A DNA stretch of 41,971 nucleotides. It comes from a virus. Shown piece after piece: positions 5,093 to 39,381 of this stretch. Numbering within the stretch: the first letter of the stretch is position 1; each line of letters opens with the position of its first letter. The translations under genes and the position numbers were made by a program. The notes under the pieces were generated by a model. The model was not told where the DNA came from and did no database searches. It saw nothing but the letters and a program-made list of their open reading frames with translations. Where the stretch lies: the IMG/VR virus record IMGVR_UViG_3300032163_000036, positions 1-41,971 of that record; one strand, given 5' to 3'.

Positions 5093-6697
5093 ATGTCATT
5101 GGATAGCGAAAAACAGAATAAAGCTAGAAAAAACATACTTAAGGTTTATTCCGATTTTGTTAAGAAAAATAAGAGAAACCCAACTCATGCTGAATTGCAA
5201 GGATTGGGGGTTTCTAGAAACGCCCTAAGATGGCATTTTGGTACATATAGAGATCTTAAACAAGAAGCTAGAAAATTAAATCCTAAGGCTTTTGAACACA
5301 TAATAGACGAAACATTGTTTAATCCCTTTAATTTTTCGGTTTTGGAAGATGAAGTAGCTAAGTATAAGAAATTTATAATAACTACCGCAGTTACTGGATG
5401 TGAGGTTCATAGGGGATTTTATAAAGCAATAAAAAATTATTGTAAAGTAAACAAAGCTCTCCTATTAGTAATTCCAGTATCTGATGCTGCTGCTGATGCC
5501 GGATGGGATCTCGATAAAATATTAAAAGACGAAAAACTCGTATTTGATAATCTTGAATTAAATTCAAATATTTATATCAGTGGCATAAAGATGGGTGCTA
5601 AACAAATAGATCCGACCACGGGTCTAGGAAGAATGGCTCAGGATAGTTCTTTTATATATGGTTCTCCTAAACAAAGGCTAAAAGTAGTTGCAAACTCAAA
5701 CCATAAACTTCCTCACGTTCTAATGGGAACCGGAGCTATAACTAAGCCCAACTATCTAACAGAAACGTATAGTAGTAAGAGAACGGCGGTTTTAGCTGAA
5801 TTTGATCACAAGATAGGAGCTATAGTTCTAGAACTAGAAGATGAAAAATATTATTTTAGACAAATACAGGCTGAGCCTAATTCAGGTAATTTCGTAGATC
5901 TAGCTAGATACTATACTAGTTCTGGAAAAATATCTAGATTAGAACCCGAGGCTTTTATTTTAGGAGATTGGCACTCAGGAGAAACAGATCCAGTTGCAGC
6001 TAAGGTTTGGGAAGAAGTCATAAGCGAAACTAATCCTAAAGACCTTATCCTTCACGATCTTTTTAACGGAAGCTCTATATCTCACTGGACTCAAAATAAA
6101 GTGATTAAAAAGGCTAGAATGGCTTTATCGGGCGATACTAATTTAACAAAAGAGCTTAAAACCACATCGGTTGATTTATTAAATCTATTAGATCTCATAA
6201 AGGGTAAAATCATAATAACTAAATCTAATCATGATGATTTTCTTGCCAGGTATCTGGAAGACGGTAGATTCATGAAGGATCATGAAAATTTTAAAATAGC
6301 TATAGAGATAGTTAAGGAAATGGTTGATGATAAAGATCCTGTAAAGTTTGGCGTAGAGATGTTCTTAAATGAAGAAACTAAAAAAAGATTAAAGTGGCTA
6401 GAGAGAGATGAAGATTATAGGATTACAAAGATAGAATGTGGAACCCACGGAGATAAGGGTCCAAATGGTTCCAAGGGTACTTTAGAAAATCATGAAAGAT
6501 CATACAAAGCTTGTACTATTGGTCACTCCCATACGCCAGGAATATTAAGAGAGGCTTACCAGGTAGGAACTACTAGTAGACTTGATCTTGATTACGCAGA
6601 AGGTCCTTCTTCTTGGATGCACACTTCTTGTTTGGTTTATCCAAACGGATCTAGACAGTTAATAAATTCTATAATGGGCAAATGGCGATTAAAGTAA
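5093..6697 (+). CDS. Metallophosphoesterase with N-terminal HTH-like region
   Basis: The protein has 534 residues. Residues about 5-60 look like a DNA-binding helical module (NPTHAELQGLGVSRNALRWHFG), similar to repeats found beside homing endonucleases and in helix-turn-helix proteins. From about residue 285 the full calcineurin-like metallophosphoesterase motif series is present: GDWHSGE (near 291), LHDLFNG, SNHDD (near 378), GTHGD (near 450) and GHSHTP (near 477). Such enzymes bind two metal ions and include the SbcD/Mre11 nucleases and, as I recall, the T5 A1 pre-early protein. It is probably a DNA nuclease, perhaps the functional partner of the SbcC-like ATPase, although its architecture is not that of SbcD. 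The gene is the last before a terminator. Confidence 0.85.
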   Translation: MSLDSEKQNKARKNILKVYSDFVKKNKRNPTHAELQGLGVSRNALRWHFGTYRDLKQEARKLNPKAFEHIIDETLFNPFNFSVLEDEVAKYKKFIITTAVTGCEVHRGFYKAIKNYCKVNKALLLVIPVSDAAADAGWDLDKILKDEKLVFDNLELNSNIYISGIKMGAKQIDPTTGLGRMAQDSSFIYGSPKQRLKVVANSNHKLPHVLMGTGAITKPNYLTETYSSKRTAVLAEFDHKIGAIVLELEDEKYYFRQIQAEPNSGNFVDLARYYTSSGKISRLEPEAFILGDWHSGETDPVAAKVWEEVISETNPKDLILHDLFNGSSISHWTQNKVIKKARMALSGDTNLTKELKTTSVDLLNLLDLIKGKIIITKSNHDDFLARYLEDGRFMKDHENFKIAIEIVKEMVDDKDPVKFGVEMFLNEETKKRLKWLERDEDYRITKIECGTHGDKGPNGSKGTLENHERSYKACTIGHSHTPGILREAYQVGTTSRLDLDYAEGPSSWMHTSCLVYPNGSRQLINSIMGKWRLK

Positions 6698-17129: not shown

Positions 17130-17753
17130 ATGACTATAGATCAAAGATTAGCGGAAGATGTTAGATTTTTGAGTATTGATCTCGAATTGGAAAGACCAAA
17201 TACCGAAGACAATGCTAAAGATAGTCTTGCTACAAAAGCCACGATCATACAGGTTGGAATAAGTGTATTTCAGATAGCGAATCCAGAGCCTATCTTTCTA
17301 GAAAATCATTGTTTAACTCTACATTATCCTCACAAGCTATCTGCATTTATAGAGAAACTAACTAAGATAAAAAGCGAAGAAGTTAACAGATCAACCTTAA
17401 CAATAGAAGATGCTAATAGAATTTTAAGAGAATTAAGAGAGAAGCACAATACATCTAGGATTATGGTTCAATGGGGTCATGGAGATTTCGAGGAGTTGAA
17501 AAAGTATGATATTAACAATGATTTACAAGTGTTCGGCAGAAGTGCTTATAATACCAAACATCTTTTTCAATTATATGCGACTATGAATAATATCAAAAAA
17601 GTAGGCGGACTTTCTAAGTGTATGGGCAGATTGGGCATACAATTTAACGGCAATATAGATGGAAAGCAGCTAAACAAGCACAACGCACTAGGCGACGCAG
17701 TAAATACTGTGCATATTTTTAATAAACTCCTTTTATTGATAAAAAAGCCTTAA
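17130..17753 (+). CDS. DEDDh-family 3'-5' exonuclease
   Basis: The 207-residue protein begins immediately after the RecA stop. The three exonuclease motifs are visible: SIDLELE (D17, E19), WGHGDFEEL with the middle aspartate (near residue 117), and HNALGDA (H184, D189). It is therefore a second DEDDh enzyme in addition to the DnaQ-like protein at 7412, more divergent and free-standing. Such enzymes degrade single-stranded DNA or RNA ends. Its position after RecA suggests a role in recombination end processing or RNA turnover. It is the last gene before a new promoter. Confidence 0.87.
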   Translation: MTIDQRLAEDVRFLSIDLELERPNTEDNAKDSLATKATIIQVGISVFQIANPEPIFLENHCLTLHYPHKLSAFIEKLTKIKSEEVNRSTLTIEDANRILRELREKHNTSRIMVQWGHGDFEELKKYDINNDLQVFGRSAYNTKHLFQLYATMNNIKKVGGLSKCMGRLGIQFNGNIDGKQLNKHNALGDAVNTVHIFNKLLLLIKKP

Positions 17754-17763
17754 AAACTATTTC

Positions 17764-17791
17764 TTGACTTTATTACAGAGTATGGTATACT
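17764..17791 (+). promoter_or_regulatory. Sigma70-type promoter with extended -10
   Basis: TTGACT (17764-17769) and TATACT (17786-17791) are spaced by 16 bases and TGG directly precedes the -10. Only five bases separate the -10 from the ATG at 17797, so initiation about seven bases downstream would make the mRNA leaderless. It starts the unit that ends with the RNA ligase gene. Confidence 0.75.
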
Positions 17792-17796
17792 CAATT

Positions 17797-18435
17797 ATGC
17801 AATTGATAAAAAAATGTTGTTCATGCAAGGAAAATAAGGAATTATCTCTTTTTTATAAAGATACAACTGCAACAGATGGTCTTCAGGCTTCATGTAAAGA
17901 TTGTCAGAAAAAAAGAAATTCCATTTATAATAAAAAACATAAATCTTATTTTATAAAAAAGGGTAAAGAAAAATATAAAAAAAATTTATTAGAAAATCCT
18001 CAATATAATAAAAATAGATATATTGACAATAAAGAGGCATATTTAAAAAGAAAAGATACTTCTTATAGAAGTGTCAGAGGTAGGGTTTATTCATTATTAG
18101 AATCGGCTAAATGTAGATCTAAAAAGAAAAATCTAAAAATAGATATTGATTTAGATTTTTTATTGGAAATGTATGAAAAACAAAACGGTAGATGCTGTTT
18201 AACCGATATAGAATTTAAACTTGAAAGAAATAAAAATAAAGAAAGATTTTATACTCCCTATGCTCCCAGCCTAGATAAAATAGATAGCTCAAAGGGATAT
18301 ACCAGAGATAATGTAAGACTAGTATTAGTTATAGTAAATTTAGCTCTTAATAGATTTGGTGATAAAGTATTTGAAGAAATTTCTACTGCTTTTTTGAAGA
18401 AAAAAGGATTTATATTAAAAGTAAGAGGAGAATAA
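17797..18435 (+). CDS. Free-standing HNH/endonuclease VII-like endonuclease
   Basis: The start is placed at ATG 17797; an in-frame TTG at 17764 is the -35 box itself. The 212-residue protein has an N-terminal zinc ribbon (C7, C8, C10, later C-x-x-C in SCKDC), a very basic lysine-rich linker, and a C-terminal nuclease part with GRCCLTDIEF, then PSLDKIDSSKGYTRDNVRLV and a final N-ALNRFG. That is a common signature of phage HNH enzymes, many of them homing nucleases. Its own promoter, leaderless start and insertion between RecA-linked and RNA-repair genes suggest a mobile gene. Its base composition is as AT-rich as its neighbours. Confidence 0.85.
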   Translation: MQLIKKCCSCKENKELSLFYKDTTATDGLQASCKDCQKKRNSIYNKKHKSYFIKKGKEKYKKNLLENPQYNKNRYIDNKEAYLKRKDTSYRSVRGRVYSLLESAKCRSKKKNLKIDIDLDFLLEMYEKQNGRCCLTDIEFKLERNKNKERFYTPYAPSLDKIDSSKGYTRDNVRLVLVIVNLALNRFGDKVFEEISTAFLKKKGFILKVRGE

Positions 18436-18437
18436 TT

Positions 18438-18554
18438 ATGAGAAAATCATTCAATCCATCCTTGTTAAAAGATAACGATAGTGGATGGTTTACTGTAGAG
18501 CAGTTAGAAGAATGGATCGAAGGGAAAGGACCTATACCAAAGGAATTAAAATGA
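18438..18554 (+). CDS. Small hypothetical protein, 38 aa
   Basis: This short frame starts at an ATG seven bases after AGAGGAG (18424-18430) and ends in TGA overlapping the next ATG (ATGA at 18551). The peptide contains GWFTVEQLEEWIEGKGPIP, a helix with two tryptophans. The strong ribosome binding site and exact coupling support it as a real gene. Function unknown. Confidence 0.6.
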   Translation: MRKSFNPSLLKDNDSGWFTVEQLEEWIEGKGPIPKELK

Positions 18555-18766
18555 ACATTGTAAGAAACAAAAATAAATCTTTTGAAGTTATTAAAGATAG
18601 AGAAGTTTTAGCTTCTTTCTCAGATTTTATTGAAGCTCAAAAATTTATGGAGAAAAATGGTTATAAATTAGAATTCAATACCAAAGAAAAAGAAAGAATG
18701 TCTGGAAACTTATTTGTAGAGACACTTAATGGATCTTATACTAGTTTATTTAGGAAGAAATTATGA
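18551..18766 (+). CDS. Small hypothetical protein, 71 aa
   Basis: The ATG overlaps the stop of the 38-aa gene, and an upstream GTG in the same frame at 18485 lies inside that gene and is less likely. The protein has an N-terminal alternation of strand and helix (SFEVIKDREVLASFSDFIEA) like a small alpha/beta fold. Its stop overlaps the nucleotidyltransferase start. No motif is recognised. Confidence 0.7.
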   Translation: MNIVRNKNKSFEVIKDREVLASFSDFIEAQKFMEKNGYKLEFNTKEKERMSGNLFVETLNGSYTSLFRKKL

Positions 18767-19374
18767 TGACATTAAACAACGACAGAACTAAGGAATGTAT
18801 TAATTTTTTCAAAAAAAATGCGTATGATGTTTTAGATCCAGATGGAAGATTTAACTTCTGGATTGCTGGTGGAAGTATAAAAGATTATTTTTTTAAAACT
18901 AAGATAAAAGATTTTGATCTATTTTTTCCAAATCAGCTTGAAATGGAAAAAATGTTAAATCATTTTAAAGATAGAAATGAAGTTAAATTTGAAGTTGACA
19001 AAGTAGCTAATATTGTAATAAAAGGTCGTGTTTATCAAATAGTAAAAAAGAATTTTTTCCAAGATCCCATAGACACCATAAGTAATTTTGACTTCACTGT
19101 TTGTTGTGGAGCTGTGGACAGAGAAAATTTTTATTGCGATGACAATTATTTTATAGATTTAGCTTCTAAAAAACTTATGGTAAATAATTTAACCTTTCCA
19201 GTAGATTCTATTAGAAGGATGCAAAAATATATAAAAAAAGGATTTAGCATTTGCAATAATCAAATATCAGAAATAGCTATTGCCGTGAGTAGATTAGAGC
19301 TTCATAAGGAAAATAAAGATATAAATGGTAACGTAGTTCAAAATGCCAATTTAACATTTTATAGAGTTGATTAA
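18763..19374 (+). CDS. Nucleotidyltransferase, CCA-adding/poly(A) polymerase head-like
   Basis: The 203-residue protein contains FWIAGGSIKDYFF with G36, G37 and S38, followed by KDFDLFF with the metal-binding D50 and D52, and a third acidic residue D110 in NFDFTV. This is the pol-beta nucleotidyltransferase fold of the CCA-adding and poly(A) polymerase group. A later DSIRRMQKYIKKGFSI segment matches the region after the head domain. It is much shorter than a full CCA enzyme (about 400 residues), lacking the neck and tail. Likely substrates are RNA 3' ends. It lies four bases overlapped behind the 71-aa gene and just before two more RNA-processing genes. Confidence 0.85.
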   Translation: MMTLNNDRTKECINFFKKNAYDVLDPDGRFNFWIAGGSIKDYFFKTKIKDFDLFFPNQLEMEKMLNHFKDRNEVKFEVDKVANIVIKGRVYQIVKKNFFQDPIDTISNFDFTVCCGAVDRENFYCDDNYFIDLASKKLMVNNLTFPVDSIRRMQKYIKKGFSICNNQISEIAIAVSRLELHKENKDINGNVVQNANLTFYRVD

Positions 19375-19384
19375 CAGAGATTTT

Positions 19385-20347
19385 ATGCAAGTTTTAGTAA
19401 AAGCTTACGCCGGTTCAATGTTATTTGGAACAAATACTCCCAAATCAGACGTTGACATTAAGGGAGTTTATCTTCCGGGATACACAGACGTTATAATGCA
19501 GAGAGCGAAAGATACTATTAAAAAAAGTATAAAATTAAGTACAGGTCTTAAAAATGAGGCTGGAGACATTGATGAGGAATATTATTCCATATTCAAATTC
19601 CTATCTATGCTAGAAACAGGTCAAACAGTTGCTATTGAATTGTTATTTACGCCGGAAAATATGATTCTAGAAAAACATCCTTTATGGGATAAAATAGTCG
19701 CCAAAAGAGAATTATTTTTAACTAAGAATGCATTGGCAATGATAGGCTATATTCGTCAGCAAGTTAACAAATACGGAGCTAGAGGCGGAAGAATACATAC
19801 GTTTGGAGAAGTTATTGATTTTCTTCACACTAAAGGTCCAGATTGTAGGTTATTCTTATTTTGGGCTGAATTAGAAGAAAAATTTACAGGAATGGATCAT
19901 GTATTGTTTCATCAAAAAAAATCCCAATACGACGAGGTTCTTTTTGATGTTTGTGGTAAAAAGTTTGGTCCCAAAGTTGCGGTTTCGGAAATATTAAAAT
20001 GTATCGAAAAAGCACATAAAGAATACGGAGAAAGAGCTAGACTTGCTAAATTAAATAAGAACATTGATTTTAAATCGGTAAGTCACGGTGTAAGAGTTGC
20101 TTTACAAGCTATAGAAATATTACAGGATCATAAAGTAACACTTCCGCTTAAAGACGCTGCATTAGTTAAAAGAATTAAAGAAGGAGGAATGAAAGCAGAT
20201 GAAATGTTTCCTCTTCTAGATAATTTAGTTAATAAAGTATTTGAAATAGAGAAAACAAGTACTCTTCCATGTGTTTTTAATAAAGAATTAATGGAAGAAA
20301 TTATATTGGATCATTATAACGATCTTCAACACGAATTTTGTTTTTAG
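19385..20347 (+). CDS. RlaP-like nucleotidyltransferase
   Basis: The ATG at 19385 gives 320 residues; an in-frame TTG at 19367 would overlap the previous gene by eight bases and cannot be ruled out. Right at the N-terminus is YAGSMLFGTNTPKSDVDIKG, with S11, D22 and D24 forming the catalytic pol-beta signature typical of the RlaP (COG3541) family. Known members are linked to RNA ligases and assigned to RNA repair. A helical C-terminal region of about 200 residues follows. The gene lies ten bases before an RNA ligase gene, as expected for this family. Confidence 0.85.
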   Translation: MQVLVKAYAGSMLFGTNTPKSDVDIKGVYLPGYTDVIMQRAKDTIKKSIKLSTGLKNEAGDIDEEYYSIFKFLSMLETGQTVAIELLFTPENMILEKHPLWDKIVAKRELFLTKNALAMIGYIRQQVNKYGARGGRIHTFGEVIDFLHTKGPDCRLFLFWAELEEKFTGMDHVLFHQKKSQYDEVLFDVCGKKFGPKVAVSEILKCIEKAHKEYGERARLAKLNKNIDFKSVSHGVRVALQAIEILQDHKVTLPLKDAALVKRIKEGGMKADEMFPLLDNLVNKVFEIEKTSTLPCVFNKELMEEIILDHYNDLQHEFCF

Positions 20348-20356
20348 GAGGTAAAT

Positions 20357-21499
20357 ATGTCAGAATTTAAAGTACCTTACGCTATTATTAAGGAAATTAA
20401 CCCTCACGACAACGCAAACGCCCTAGAAATCGCTACTATCTACGGATTCCAAGTCATAGTAAAAAAAGATCAATTCAGATCTAATGATAAAATTTTTTAT
20501 ATTCCTATAGATTCGATACTTCCAATGGATTTAGAAACATTCATATTTCCAGAAGGAAGTAAGGTTAAATTAACAAAATCTAGAGTACGTCAGATAAAAT
20601 TACGAGGTAGAGTTAGTCAAGGAATGGTTTTAAGTGAATACGATATCAAACAACTTCTTAAAATTAGAGGACTTAAGACAGATATAGAATTCAAATTAGA
20701 AGAAGATTATTCCGCTTTATTAAATATTTTAAAATACGATCCTCCTCAAGCTGAATTTCATGGAGCTTCTCAACCTAAAATGAGAGATAAGAAAGGAGAG
20801 AACCCGTTCTTTAGGAAATATAACGGCATAACGAATATTCAATGGGCACCGGATCTTTTTAAAAATCAAGAGGTTATAGCTCAGTGCAAAATCCATGGAA
20901 GTCACATTCGTTTCGGAAAACCTCTGTTTGTGGCAAATACTTTATTAAAAAAGATTATGAAATTTTTTAGATTAACTCCTAAATATGAATTCGTCTACGG
21001 TTCCAATAATGTAGAACTAACTAATAAAATGAGGAAAAATAGCTATTATGGAGAAGATATCTACGCAAAGGTACTTCAAAAATATTCTGCTAAAGAAAAA
21101 ATCAAGGATGGCGAGTTTGTTCATGCAGAAATTTACGGATTCGGAATACAAAAAAATTATACTTATGGCTGCAAAGAGGGAGAGCATAAGCTTGTTATTT
21201 TTGACGTAAGAATAATGCAAGAAGATGAAACTCAAAAATGGTTAGATCCAGAAGAATCCGAGTCTTACGCTAAAGAAAGAGGGTTTGATTTCGTTCCTGT
21301 GCTTTACAGAGGTATCTATAATGAACAATTAATTTATGAATTAACAAAAGGACCTAGTATCTTGTGCCCAGAACAAAAAGTTAGAGAAGGGGTTGTTATT
21401 AAAAAGAGAATTGGATATGATAACGAACAAAGTAAAATGGCTCTAAAATGGATCAGTGAAGATTATTTATCGGATAAAAATAATACCGATTTCCACTAA
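20357..21499 (+). CDS. RNA ligase, Rnl5 (DraRnl) type
   Basis: The 380-residue protein has a perfect AGGAGG site before its ATG. Residues about 1-115 form an OB-like domain (NANALEIATIYGFQVIV, DKIFYIPIDSILP), as in Deinococcus RNA ligase DraRnl. The nucleotidyltransferase motifs follow: motif I CKIHGSHIRFG with the adenylated Lys178, motif III FVHAEIYG, motif IV REGVVIK (near 344) and motif V MALKWIS. Such ligases seal 3'-OH/5'-phosphate breaks, preferring nicks with an RNA 3' end. With the two nucleotidyltransferases upstream this makes a probable RNA repair set, for example against host tRNA-cleaving defences. It is the last gene of its unit. Confidence 0.92.
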   Translation: MSEFKVPYAIIKEINPHDNANALEIATIYGFQVIVKKDQFRSNDKIFYIPIDSILPMDLETFIFPEGSKVKLTKSRVRQIKLRGRVSQGMVLSEYDIKQLLKIRGLKTDIEFKLEEDYSALLNILKYDPPQAEFHGASQPKMRDKKGENPFFRKYNGITNIQWAPDLFKNQEVIAQCKIHGSHIRFGKPLFVANTLLKKIMKFFRLTPKYEFVYGSNNVELTNKMRKNSYYGEDIYAKVLQKYSAKEKIKDGEFVHAEIYGFGIQKNYTYGCKEGEHKLVIFDVRIMQEDETQKWLDPEESESYAKERGFDFVPVLYRGIYNEQLIYELTKGPSILCPEQKVREGVVIKKRIGYDNEQSKMALKWISEDYLSDKNNTDFH

Positions 21500-21511
21500 A
21501 GTATGGTATAA
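21500..21511 (+). promoter_or_regulatory. Extended -10 promoter GTATGGTATAAT
   Basis: TATAAT at 21506-21511 is preceded by TGG. It begins exactly after the RNA ligase stop. No -35 is clear. Initiation near 21518 gives a leader of about 39 bases to the gene at 21557, including an AAGGAG site. Confidence 0.7.
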
Positions 21512-21556
21512 TGTTTAAAATATCCTCAATTAAGGGGAAGATAATAAGGAGATACG

Positions 21557-25767: not shown

Positions 25768-26645
25768 AAGAAACGACTAAATCGTTTTTGAATCTATTCT
25801 TCAATCCTGGAGAGACTATCTGTGTTAGCGATAGTGAATATGGATATCACAGTATTGAACAATCTGAGATAGGAGGAGAGATCAAACTAATTTCTCCAAG
25901 TTCAAAGGTATCGGATAGAGTTATACTTGAAGGCGATATAAACCTAATAGCATTGAATCCAATAAAAGGCTTTAGGGATGACGTTAGTGTTACCTCCTTT
26001 AGGTCGTTTTTAGTCGAAATGGATGGAGAAAGTCTACAGGATCAAGTTAAATACGTAAAAGAAATGGAAATGCCATATTCTGTTTGTGTTTTTTCTGGCA
26101 ATAAATCCATGCATTTTGGGATAGTCTTAGATCAAGACATGCCCTCGGAAGAAATTTATAGGGTTTTAGCTGAGTGGATACTGAATATAATGAAAAAAGC
26201 AGATCAAGTGACTAAAAATCCCTCTAGATCTATAAGGTTTCCTGGAAATAAGAGGAAAAATGGTAGAGAATTGATACAATCCATGATCGAATTAAAACAA
26301 AGAGTTAGCTATAATAAACTGTCTGAATGGTTAAACAAGTATCCAGAGGAGAACCCTACTCTTAAACACATGATGGAGAGAGCGAAAAGACCTATCTACA
26401 GCTTAAACATAGATAGTATTCCTGTATGGGTTATGGACAAGATTACTAAAGGTATAGATCCTTCTAGAGGTAGGAACAATGAATGGTCATCTATAGCCTT
26501 TTCTTTAGCTAAGGCTGGCTATAGTTATGAAGAGATGAGAGGATACTTAGAACCTTTCTTTGAACCGGATGTTGACTTTAAGACAAAAGAGTGGTTAAAT
26601 ATACTTAAGAGTGCTCATAGAAAGGTTATGAAGGAAATAAGATAA
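25764..26645 (+). CDS. AEP-type primase
   Basis: The 293-residue protein shows features of archaeo-eukaryotic primases: a strand FLVEMDGES with acidic E85 and D87, FSGNKSMHFGIVL with the conserved Ser-x-Lys-Ser-x-His (H117), and NPSRSIRFPG (near 152). The C-terminal part, RGRNNEWSSIAFSLAKAGYS with a later EWLNILKSAH, looks like a PriCT-type domain. No CHC2 zinc finger or Toprim signature is present, so it is not a DnaG-type primase. It would make primers for the DnaE-type polymerase. It is coupled by ATGA to the previous gene. Confidence 0.82.
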   Translation: MKETTKSFLNLFFNPGETICVSDSEYGYHSIEQSEIGGEIKLISPSSKVSDRVILEGDINLIALNPIKGFRDDVSVTSFRSFLVEMDGESLQDQVKYVKEMEMPYSVCVFSGNKSMHFGIVLDQDMPSEEIYRVLAEWILNIMKKADQVTKNPSRSIRFPGNKRKNGRELIQSMIELKQRVSYNKLSEWLNKYPEENPTLKHMMERAKRPIYSLNIDSIPVWVMDKITKGIDPSRGRNNEWSSIAFSLAKAGYSYEEMRGYLEPFFEPDVDFKTKEWLNILKSAHRKVMKEIR

Positions 26646-27214
26646 TGGCTACACGTAAAAATCACAACGATATAGACGTTTTCATGGATAATGGGCTTTA
26701 TGTTCCTACTCGTACTATCAGTATGGGAGGAGAAACGATTGATCATGAGCTATCTGAACAAATCATAAAAAATTTACACGTACTTGATAATTTAAACAAT
26801 GATCCTCTTACGATTATCCTTAATAGTAACGGAGGAGATTGTAATCAAGGAATGAGTATATACGAAGCAATAAGACTGTGTAAGAGTCACGTTACAGTTA
26901 AGGTTATAGGACAGGTACAGTCTATGGCAGCATGGATATTGCAAATTGCCGACCATAGGATGATGTCCAGAAACAGCCGCCTGATGATACATACTGGAGT
27001 AATGGGATTACCTGATGATCATCCTGAAAATAATAAGAAATGGATGAAACAATGGGAAAAAGATGAGATTATTTTTGAAGATATTTTATTAGAAAAAATA
27101 AAAGTAAAACATCCAGATTTTACCAGAAAAAAAATTAAAGATATGTTAAGGTTTGATACTATTTTAACTCCAGAAGAAGCCTTAGAACTTGGACTAATAG
27201 ATGAAATTGTTTGA
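26645..27214 (+). CDS. ClpP-like serine protease (S14)
   Basis: The 189-residue protein matches the length and fold of ClpP. It contains NSNGGDCNQGMSIYEAI (oxyanion and first helix), QSMAAW with Ser93, MIHTG with His116, and RFDTILTPEEAL with Asp171, completing the catalytic triad in order and spacing. It could degrade targets with a host or phage AAA+ partner. It is not a typical capsid-maturation protease in context, because it lies between the primase and aminotransferase genes and far from structural genes in this window. No Clp ATPase gene is visible here. Confidence 0.9.
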   Translation: MATRKNHNDIDVFMDNGLYVPTRTISMGGETIDHELSEQIIKNLHVLDNLNNDPLTIILNSNGGDCNQGMSIYEAIRLCKSHVTVKVIGQVQSMAAWILQIADHRMMSRNSRLMIHTGVMGLPDDHPENNKKWMKQWEKDEIIFEDILLEKIKVKHPDFTRKKIKDMLRFDTILTPEEALELGLIDEIV

Positions 27215-28187
27215 AAATGAAATAGACATGGGATGGGGGAATCCTTATTTTCTATCTGAACTTCTTAATAATGAGGTTAAAGGATATCAATATCTAGATT
27301 TAGATTATCATAGATTAGATACAATGAATTACGCTCCCATGCAAGGAATGGACGAATTAATAGAAAAAACACACGACATTATACATAAAATTGCAGGTAG
27401 AGATTATAGATACGTAATAATAACAAACGGCGCAACGAGTGCAATAAATACAGTATTTAGAACTTGGAAATATAGACACGGTAGTGATTGTGTTTTTACT
27501 AACAGGTTGGGTTTTACTTTTTACGATCAAATGATAAGAAAAGCAGATTTATGGAGAATAAAAGATATTAAAAAGCCTAAAAAATCAAATCATATAACTT
27601 TAATTGACAGTCCTGGAAACCCAACAGGTAAACAGATAAACAATGATAATTACAATCTAACTATATGGGATTCTGTCTATCACAGTAGGATCTATAATGC
27701 TAATTTAAAAAAAGTTCCTAAACACAGTGTAATGGTTGGATCTTATGGTAAACTACTCGGAATAACCGGAGTTAGGATTGGTTGGATCGCAACGGATAGT
27801 TATCAGGATTATCAGGATTTTTTATCCGAAGTCTTGCATGAATCATGTACCGTATCTGTTCCAAGCCAGAGATTAATATTAACGATATTGAAACTTTTAA
27901 ATTTTGACTCTTTTATGAAACACGGGAAAGATATTTTAAACAAAAACAGAAAATATATGAAAAAATTAGAATCTGTACTAAAAAGTAAGGTTCCAAGGAT
28001 AGGTATGTTTTATCCTATAAAGGCTGATGAAAAAATGTTTAAGCTTTTTGACAAAGCTAAAATAAAATATACTACGCTAGAAGGCATAGAGGGTAAATTC
28101 TTAAGATTAAATATAGGTCAAACTTACGAAAATGTTAAAGAAACGGTTGATAGGATATTAAAAATAAAAGGAGCTAAAAATGAGTAA
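27201..28187 (+). CDS. PLP-dependent aminotransferase (fold type I)
   Basis: The 328-residue protein carries the class I/II aminotransferase set: NGATSAI (near residue 77), SPGNPTGK with N140, IWDSVYHS with the cofactor-contacting Asp and Tyr, SYGKLLGITGVRIGW with the Schiff-base Lys184, and the substrate-binding arginine in RLNIG (near 302). It is shorter than most members (about 360-400). It overlaps the ClpP-like gene by 14 bases. The substrate cannot be read from sequence. Roles in amino acid or cofactor metabolism, or in hypermodification of phage DNA bases, are conceivable; no other base-modification gene is in the window. Confidence 0.88.
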   Translation: MKLFENEIDMGWGNPYFLSELLNNEVKGYQYLDLDYHRLDTMNYAPMQGMDELIEKTHDIIHKIAGRDYRYVIITNGATSAINTVFRTWKYRHGSDCVFTNRLGFTFYDQMIRKADLWRIKDIKKPKKSNHITLIDSPGNPTGKQINNDNYNLTIWDSVYHSRIYNANLKKVPKHSVMVGSYGKLLGITGVRIGWIATDSYQDYQDFLSEVLHESCTVSVPSQRLILTILKLLNFDSFMKHGKDILNKNRKYMKKLESVLKSKVPRIGMFYPIKADEKMFKLFDKAKIKYTTLEGIEGKFLRLNIGQTYENVKETVDRILKIKGAKNE

Positions 28188-39159: not shown

Positions 39160-39171
39160 TTGTGGTATAAT
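39160..39171 (+). promoter_or_regulatory. Extended -10 promoter TTGTGGTATAAT
   Basis: TATAAT at 39166-39171 is preceded by TGG, identical over 12 bases to the promoter at 6747. The ATG at 39178 is just six bases past the -10, so the transcript is expected to be leaderless. No -35 is visible. It drives the island of four small plus-strand genes within the structural region. Confidence 0.72.
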
Positions 39172-39177
39172 TAGACA

Positions 39178-39381
39178 ATGAAAGTAAAAGATCTAATTGA
39201 AATACTTGATAAGTACTCAGAAAATGCTATAATCATGGTAGAAGATCCTCTATCTGAAGATGGCAGGTGTTTTACTGTAGCTACAACATTTAAAGCTAGA
39301 ATTAAAGATAATAAAATAGTCGATAGACCTTGCAAGGAAACTGCCGGAGCATTAGAAGCGGTAATTTTGATAGTAGAATGA
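39178..39381 (+). CDS. Hypothetical protein, 67 aa (leaderless)
   Basis: The ATG follows the promoter by six bases, without a ribosome binding site. The protein is a small alpha/beta type: an N-terminal helix (MKVKDLIEILDKYSENAIIM) and several strands (FTVATTFKARIKD, AVILIVE). It looks compact and globular. Similar short openings (VKDLIEILDKYPENA) are common in small phage proteins of unknown function. It overlaps the next gene by four bases. Confidence 0.75.
   Translation: MKVKDLIEILDKYSENAIIMVEDPLSEDGRCFTVATTFKARIKDNKIVDRPCKETAGALEAVILIVE

Follow-up and report, generated by a model that had tools for sequence, protein, structure and literature searches.

Does a phage operon that combines two nucleotidyltransferases with an RNA ligase encode one pathway for rebuilding and sealing cut RNA, and does each of these enzymes belong to that pathway? 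The locus that raises this question lies in the IMG/VR virus record IMGVR_UViG_3300032163_000036, analyzed here over its whole stretch of 41,971 bases (the window), which is classed as linear and is probably a fragment. Its three genes of interest encode a small nucleotidyltransferase with a class-II head (hereafter NTase), RlaP, and an Rnl5-type RNA ligase. A preliminary description, made from the sequence alone, had listed these genes together with an HNH gene and two tiny genes ahead of them, and its gene list, coordinates and catalytic residues all proved correct. On balance, we favor the interpretation that the operon is an accessory RNA-repair cassette with a counter-defense role, inserted in the phage replication module, and that the NTase is an auxiliary member of it. 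Such an operon, whose two different nucleotide-adding enzymes and ligase lend themselves to joint expression, is a small system in which the rebuilding of RNA by phages after cleavage by host defense nucleases can be examined.

RlaP and the ligase form the core of this interpretation: profiles and alignments support that both are genuine members of RNA-repair families with intact active sites. RlaP matched PF10127 with 51.7 bits against a gathering cut-off of 23, and phrog_388 with 1.7e-72. The active site, typical of the Pol-beta superfamily, comprises G10, S11, D22, D24 and a third acidic residue, D63; in the alignment of relatives all were invariant except D24, which was kept in 52 of 53. 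A tblastn search with the window protein returned 1504 phage records, the best ones at 32–36% identity and some annotated as nrdC.11. Given that the AlphaFold model (predicted local distance difference test, pLDDT, 92) had structural matches only to generic MNT/ANT and HalB nucleotidyltransferase cores, the proposed role in RNA repair is drawn from family and context. According to PMC7824862, RlaP functions together with RNA ligases, and a restoration of lost nucleotides is the activity predicted for it; that source, citing Burroughs and Aravind 2016, places this restoration after host RNase attack.

The ligase combined an N-terminal OB domain (PF21189, 58.8 bits) with a nucleotidyltransferase domain (PF09414, 61.5 bits), both above cut-off, and had motifs I, III, IV and V, including the lysine nucleophile (K178). 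K178, G181, E258 and E344-G345 were invariant among 36 aligned rows, and K364 was kept in all of them except one gapped row. Given that the 36-row profile matched structures of Naegleria NgrRnl over the full length (residues 8–368; 1.7e-46), we assign the protein to the Rnl5 type, in agreement with its earlier description as a DraRnl-type ligase. Against TIGR02306, the DRB0094 equivalog model, it scored 142.4 bits (1.6e-41), below the cut-off of 151.15; judged by this score, it is a relative of the DRB0094 family and not a strict equivalog.

To place the three families in their genomic company, we read the neighborhoods of 80 RlaP, 80 ligase and 80 NTase loci and searched whole records, 50 per family. 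RlaP was present in 18 of 50 ligase records versus 4 of 50 NTase records (Fisher p = 0.001), and the Rnl5 profile matched, in some cases weakly or partially, in 16 of 50 RlaP records versus 1 of 50 NTase records (Fisher p = 8e-5). Distances between RlaP and ligase genes could be measured in 17 records; the two lay within 5 kb of each other in 8 of these, against 1.9 expected (p = 1e-4), a closeness that early-gene clustering inflates. These results support a genomic linkage between the RlaP and Rnl5-type ligase families, as already published for jumbo phages (PMC7824862), and bear out the preliminary description of RlaP as an RNA-ligase-associated family.

End-healing enzymes recurred at these loci. 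RlaP, PNKP and Rnl5 genes followed one another directly at L101, L109 and L120, while at L100 a classic RlaP was followed by PNKP, Rnl5 and a calcineurin-like phosphoesterase, an order also present in G052 across contig ends. The RlaP gene, of the NrdC.11 type, was followed directly by an HD-domain hydrolase gene at ~15 loci, mostly as overlapping open reading frames (L018, L019, L022, L024 and L027, with the same arrangement at L028, L030, L035, L042, L046, L053, L057, L062, L064 and L081), in what looks like a conserved two-gene unit; at L086, an HD gene sat between RlaP and the ligase. Relatives carried PNKP, HD, HAD_SAK_2 or calcineurin-like enzymes beside their repair genes, unlike the window unit, in which, as previously noted, there is no end-healing kinase or phosphatase.

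The ligase of G052 was 54% identical to that of the window, and in its genome PNKP adjoined the ligase; RlaP was present as well, as was a tail-less CCA-type protein of 207 aa that consists of the head only (PolyA_pol, 115 bits). By sequence, G052 is a carrier of a fuller repair set with a tail-less true CCA head; its locus L194 (G052 158000–166783), together with L193, held PNKP, Rnl5, calcineurin-like phosphoesterase, HAD, RlaP and the 207-aa head. We considered whether this was the same NTase-RlaP-ligase trio and rejected it, given the true CCA-type head, the interruption of the trio, and its course across contig ends without a shown terminal overlap.

The preliminary description had presented the window NTase as a truncated CCA/poly(A)-type enzyme, of which the head fold stood. 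Its AlphaFold model (pLDDT 92) had heads of CCA-adding enzymes and poly(A) polymerases as top Foldseek matches (E 6.6e-7), with template modeling (TM) scores to the query of 0.45–0.64 over 40 significant matches, and the 49-row family profile matched structures of such enzymes in the PDB (E 1.8e-5). The motifs were G36-G37-S38, K40, D50-x-D52, F109-D110-F111-T112, R152 and K155. Across the 49 relatives of the conservation alignment, G36, G37, D50, D52, F109, D110, T112 and R152 were invariant; Q92, F111, K155, G160 and R40, the last replaced by lysine in the window protein, were almost invariant. Other hallmarks of CCA-adding enzymes were absent: PolyA_pol scored 19.4 bits against a cut-off of 23, the RR of the RRDxT motif is missing, the RR-DFTIN of bacterial CCA enzymes reads S/N-FDFT-V/I-C in the NTase family (FDFTVC in the window), and the nucleotide-selection motif EDxxR is lost, with FPVDSIRR at that place in the alignment with CCA enzymes. 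The protein has only 203 aa, with neck, body and tail domains absent. However, head-only proteins of about 200 aa were common in the family; given that open reading frames at the 80 viral NTase loci were mostly 200–300 aa from stop to stop and that the closest relatives had the same C-terminal tail, it is a head-only enzyme and not a remnant, and we rejected truncation. The family was almost virus-restricted, with one hit among 84,980 bacterial and archaeal genomes and none in plasmids. Stenotrophomonas phage DLP_6 (L005 4900–6558) had three tandem, diverged copies of a small class-II-head NTase, and among the BFVD matches of the NTase model, giant-virus proteins with BTB or ankyrin repeats had parts structurally related to it.

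Junctions between the genes from 17797 to 21499 were 4-nt overlaps or gaps of 2–10 nt, and an AGGAGG upstream of the ligase gene overlapped the RlaP stop; given these tight junctions and this AGGAGG, we read the genes as a single operon, an arrangement from which RlaP and the ligase are predicted to be co-transcribed. The cassette lies with UvsX/DnaQ on one side and DnaB on the other. The nearest named relative of the window, the 170 kb Myxococcus phage Mx1, was syntenic with it across DNA polymerase III alpha, SSB, UvsX and ClpP (24–36% identity), and profile searches detected no NTase, RlaP or Rnl5 ligase anywhere in the Mx1 genome. No close relative from the phage group of the window was found. 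Because a syntenic phage lacks all three genes, the segment between UvsX/DnaQ and DnaB is accessory relative to Mx1, as expected for counter-defense cargo. The coordinates of all features are compiled below.

Features of the cassette and its flanking promoter-like sites (positions in the window).
Feature	Coordinates	Strand	Matches and remarks
Promoter-like site, TTGACT + 16 nt + extended -10 TATGGTATACT	17764..17791	+	extended -10 at 17781
HNH / endonuclease VII-like gene	17797..18435	+	phrog_1035 3.6e-24, phrog_3322 2e-22
Tiny open reading frame, 38 aa	18438..18554	+	no family matches
Tiny open reading frame, 71 aa	18551..18766	+	no family matches; 4-nt overlap with each neighbor
Class-II-head nucleotidyltransferase (NTase), 203 aa, short, stand-alone	18763..19374	+	phrog_4400 9e-23
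RlaP (T4 NrdC.11-type, Pol-beta superfamily nucleotidyltransferase), 320 aa	ATG 19385..20347	+	PF10127, phrog_388
Rnl5-type (DraRnl/NgrRnl-like) ATP-dependent RNA ligase, 380 aa	20357..21499	+	PF09414, PF21189, TIGR02306
Extended -10 promoter-like site TATGGTATAAT, next unit	21502..21512	+	word match

Both promoter-like sites proposed in the preliminary description, one ahead of the HNH gene and one directly after the ligase stop, were recovered, and they have a common extended -10 word, TATGGTATAMT. With at most one mismatch, this word occurred at 7 sites versus 3.2 expected (a count reached in 4 of 100 shuffles), several of them in intergenic gaps upstream of genes; a generic promoter scan gave 68 sites versus 66 in shuffles, that is, no excess. 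The -10 of the first site ends 5 nt upstream of the HNH ATG. The word TRTGGTATAMT preceded several genes (6748, 17781, 21502, 39161), and at 17764–17799 and 39161–39180 the last base of the extended -10 lay 5–6 nt upstream of an ATG; transcripts from these two sites may be nearly leaderless. The HNH product, a His-Me endonuclease with a zinc-finger start, is probably a mobile endonuclease carried along in the operon.

A nucleotide search of phages for the cassette returned no match, nor did a PADLOC search with ten cassette and neighboring proteins. Scans of viral contigs with the single window proteins RlaP, UvsX and DnaB also gave no matches, whereas alignment queries did.

In the NTase tree, the window protein fell into a clade of nine members (support 97/87), and RlaP, an RNA ligase or SAK lay within 8 kb in 4 of its 8 relatives, versus 5 of 63 non-duplicate loci elsewhere (p = 0.007). 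The members concerned were L199 (RlaP and HD), L203 (PF09414 RNA ligase), L206/G004 (Rnl5 and phosphoesterase) and L200 (HAD_SAK_2). This enrichment of repair genes around the window subclade is suggestive only; taken with the position in the operon, it points to an auxiliary role within the cassette as the most likely one for the NTase. Several observations weigh against this. The subclade test was post hoc, with the clade picked after viewing the tree and some of the neighbors. A contiguous NTase-RlaP-ligase trio was present nowhere but in the window among the ~270 loci read, 46 of 50 NTase records were without RlaP and 49 of 50 without Rnl5, and the 80 NTase loci clustered with genes for DNA polymerase, clamp loader, RecT, YqaJ and PDDEXK exonuclease. 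Neither RlaP nor an Rnl5 ligase was detected in any of the 7 named NTase phages, the phage encoding Gad2 among them (16 named phages, taken as relatives of the three proteins, were searched). In addition, the fold of RlaP resembles antibiotic nucleotidyltransferases and HalB and so confers no RNA specificity, and the unit has no end-healing enzyme, which means that healing would have to come from outside it. No tRNA gene and no PNKP-like or SAK-like gene was found within the window, although missing healing enzymes weigh little given that the record is probably a fragment. Across the homologous neighborhoods, pairs of the three genes recurred. All three families were present in the G004 genome, where Rnl5 lay ~6 kb from the NTase and RlaP ~34 kb away, and a calcineurin-like phosphoesterase overlapped the NTase start; G002, G024 and G009 also had all three, dispersed and with weaker or partial matches.

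The chief rival explanation is that only RlaP and the ligase form a repair pair, while the NTase is a passenger of the replication and recombination region that shares their promoter and acts in DNA metabolism or, like Gad2, in anti-defense. We regard this as possible but less likely than the favored interpretation. It would account for the location of most NTase relatives among recombination and replication genes without RlaP and ligase, for the placement of the window cassette itself between UvsX/DnaQ and DnaB, and for the kinship with the anti-Gabija protein Gad2 of Bacillus phage SPbetaL7 (WIT28108.1), whose head falls in the NTase family (profile E 3.6e-38). However, the window NTase and Gad2 stood on different main branches of the tree (support 100/94), its own subclade was enriched for RNA-repair neighbors, the pairing recurred at L034/L196, where the NTase gene overlaps RlaP and HAD_SAK_2 comes next, and NTase and RlaP genes lay within 5 kb of each other in 6 of 11 shared records versus 1.7 expected (p = 0.0025), a closeness again inflated by early-gene clustering. 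A related proposal, that the NTase is itself a Gabija-type defense inhibitor in a mixed counter-defense island without pathway logic, draws on the same shared head and on the restriction of the family to phages, but we consider it improbable: Gad2 is phylogenetically remote, and it has 400 aa with a C-terminal half that is absent from the window NTase. On this basis we rejected the NTase as a Gad2 ortholog. Decay of a CCA-adding enzyme, already disfavored, is very improbable. A class-II head without body and tail domains, and the short true CCA-type head of the related phage G052, are what it would predict, yet every catalytic residue is retained in the window NTase, many relatives are head-only at ~200–250 aa, with the nearest sharing its C-terminal tail, and RR and EDxxR are absent from the entire family and not from the window protein alone.

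For the accessory RNA-repair cassette that we favor, the following sequence of events can be proposed from established biochemistry. A host RNase would cut tRNA or other RNA, and the ends would be healed to 3'-OH and 5'-PO4 by enzymes outside the unit, encoded elsewhere in the phage genome or by the host. RlaP would then put back the nucleotide or nucleotides lost at the RNA 3' end, and the Rnl5 ligase would seal the 3'-OH/5'-PO4 break via a K178-AMP intermediate. The small NTase would most likely extend RNA ends by a single nucleotide or a few, or else cap an end, with no templated choice between C and A and perhaps with less selectivity than a CCA enzyme, given that it has the catalytic head of CCA-adding enzymes and poly(A) polymerases but no EDxxR and no tRNA-binding body or tail. 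Of the three-enzyme pathway of end-trimming, end-rebuilding and sealing that had been proposed, the RlaP/ligase repair core was retained and the NTase part is plausible but unproven, with most NTase relatives lacking RlaP and ligase; trimming was not, as none of the three genes has such a function.

Outside the cassette, a DnaQ/RNase_T-like exonuclease gene (17130–17753) stops 10 nt upstream of the -35 of the cassette promoter. Its product scored 23.9 bits against PF00929 (cut-off 24) and E 0.056 against an Rv2179c-like exoribonuclease, and it would be the sole candidate for an end-trimming step. At L208, a locus of a window-NTase relative, an Rv2179c-like exoribonuclease was encoded ~2 kb downstream. 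Elsewhere in the window, the gene next after that for a ClpP-like protease encoded a class I/II aminotransferase (PF00155, 2e-16; 26645–28187 for the pair), an unusual neighbor in a phage. At 5093–6697 lay the gene for a DNA transfer protein that is T5 A1-like and resembles metallophosphoesterases (phrog_1745, 5.8e-94).

Compared with characterized enzymes, the window NTase shares with bacterial class-II CCA-adding enzymes and poly(A) polymerases the head fold and the catalytic GG...DxD...DFT arrangement. It departs from them in that body and tail domains are absent, DFT is not preceded by RR, EDxxR is missing and the PolyA_pol score lies below cut-off. Gad2, found in SPbeta-like phages, has an N-terminal head of the same family; it differs in its extra C-terminal half, its separate main branch and a phage background without RlaP or Rnl5 ligase. 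Its mechanism has not yet been reported in the literature (PMC12904381), and its head is now linked to an enzyme family amenable to assay. It is conceivable, though doubtful, that one subclade of these phage-restricted, head-only NTases was recruited as an RNA-end builder for RlaP/Rnl5 cassettes while the Gad2 branch became anti-Gabija; if true, a single enzyme fold would serve counter-defense against both RNA- and DNA-directed immunity. DraRnl (DRB0094) of Deinococcus and NgrRnl of Naegleria have the OB and covalent nucleotidyltransferase domains with all the catalytic motifs of the window ligase, which falls below the DRB0094 equivalog cut-off and has different operon partners. RlaP of the window belongs, over its full length, to the T4 NrdC.11 family (PHROG 388), at 32–36% identity to NrdC.11-annotated and related phage proteins; unlike in the window, NrdC.11 was not beside a ligase in the records examined, with the two genes ~86 kb apart in Aes508, for example. 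This conserved T4 gene is annotated as hypothetical in many records, and in uncultured phages it directly adjoins PNKP, HD, SAK phosphatase and Rnl5 genes.

The closest precedents are the published phage systems for RNA repair by RlaP and an RNA ligase (Burroughs and Aravind 2016; Iyer et al. 2021, PMC7824862), which combine RlaP with an ATP-grasp ligase as the window does. Template-independent CCA-type NTases and PNK, HAD, HD or calcineurin healing enzymes are reported to be used beside RlaP and ligase (PMC7824862). The window differs from these systems in that all its genes form one operon, the place of the CCA enzyme is taken by a class-II head of the Gad2 family, the ligase is of the Rnl5 and not the Rnl1/Rnl2 type, and the unit has no healing enzyme. 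RlaP with a ligase, and CCA-type NTases nearby, are thus already known in phages, and what is new here is the joining of a Gad2-family NTase and an Rnl5-type ligase with RlaP in one operon.

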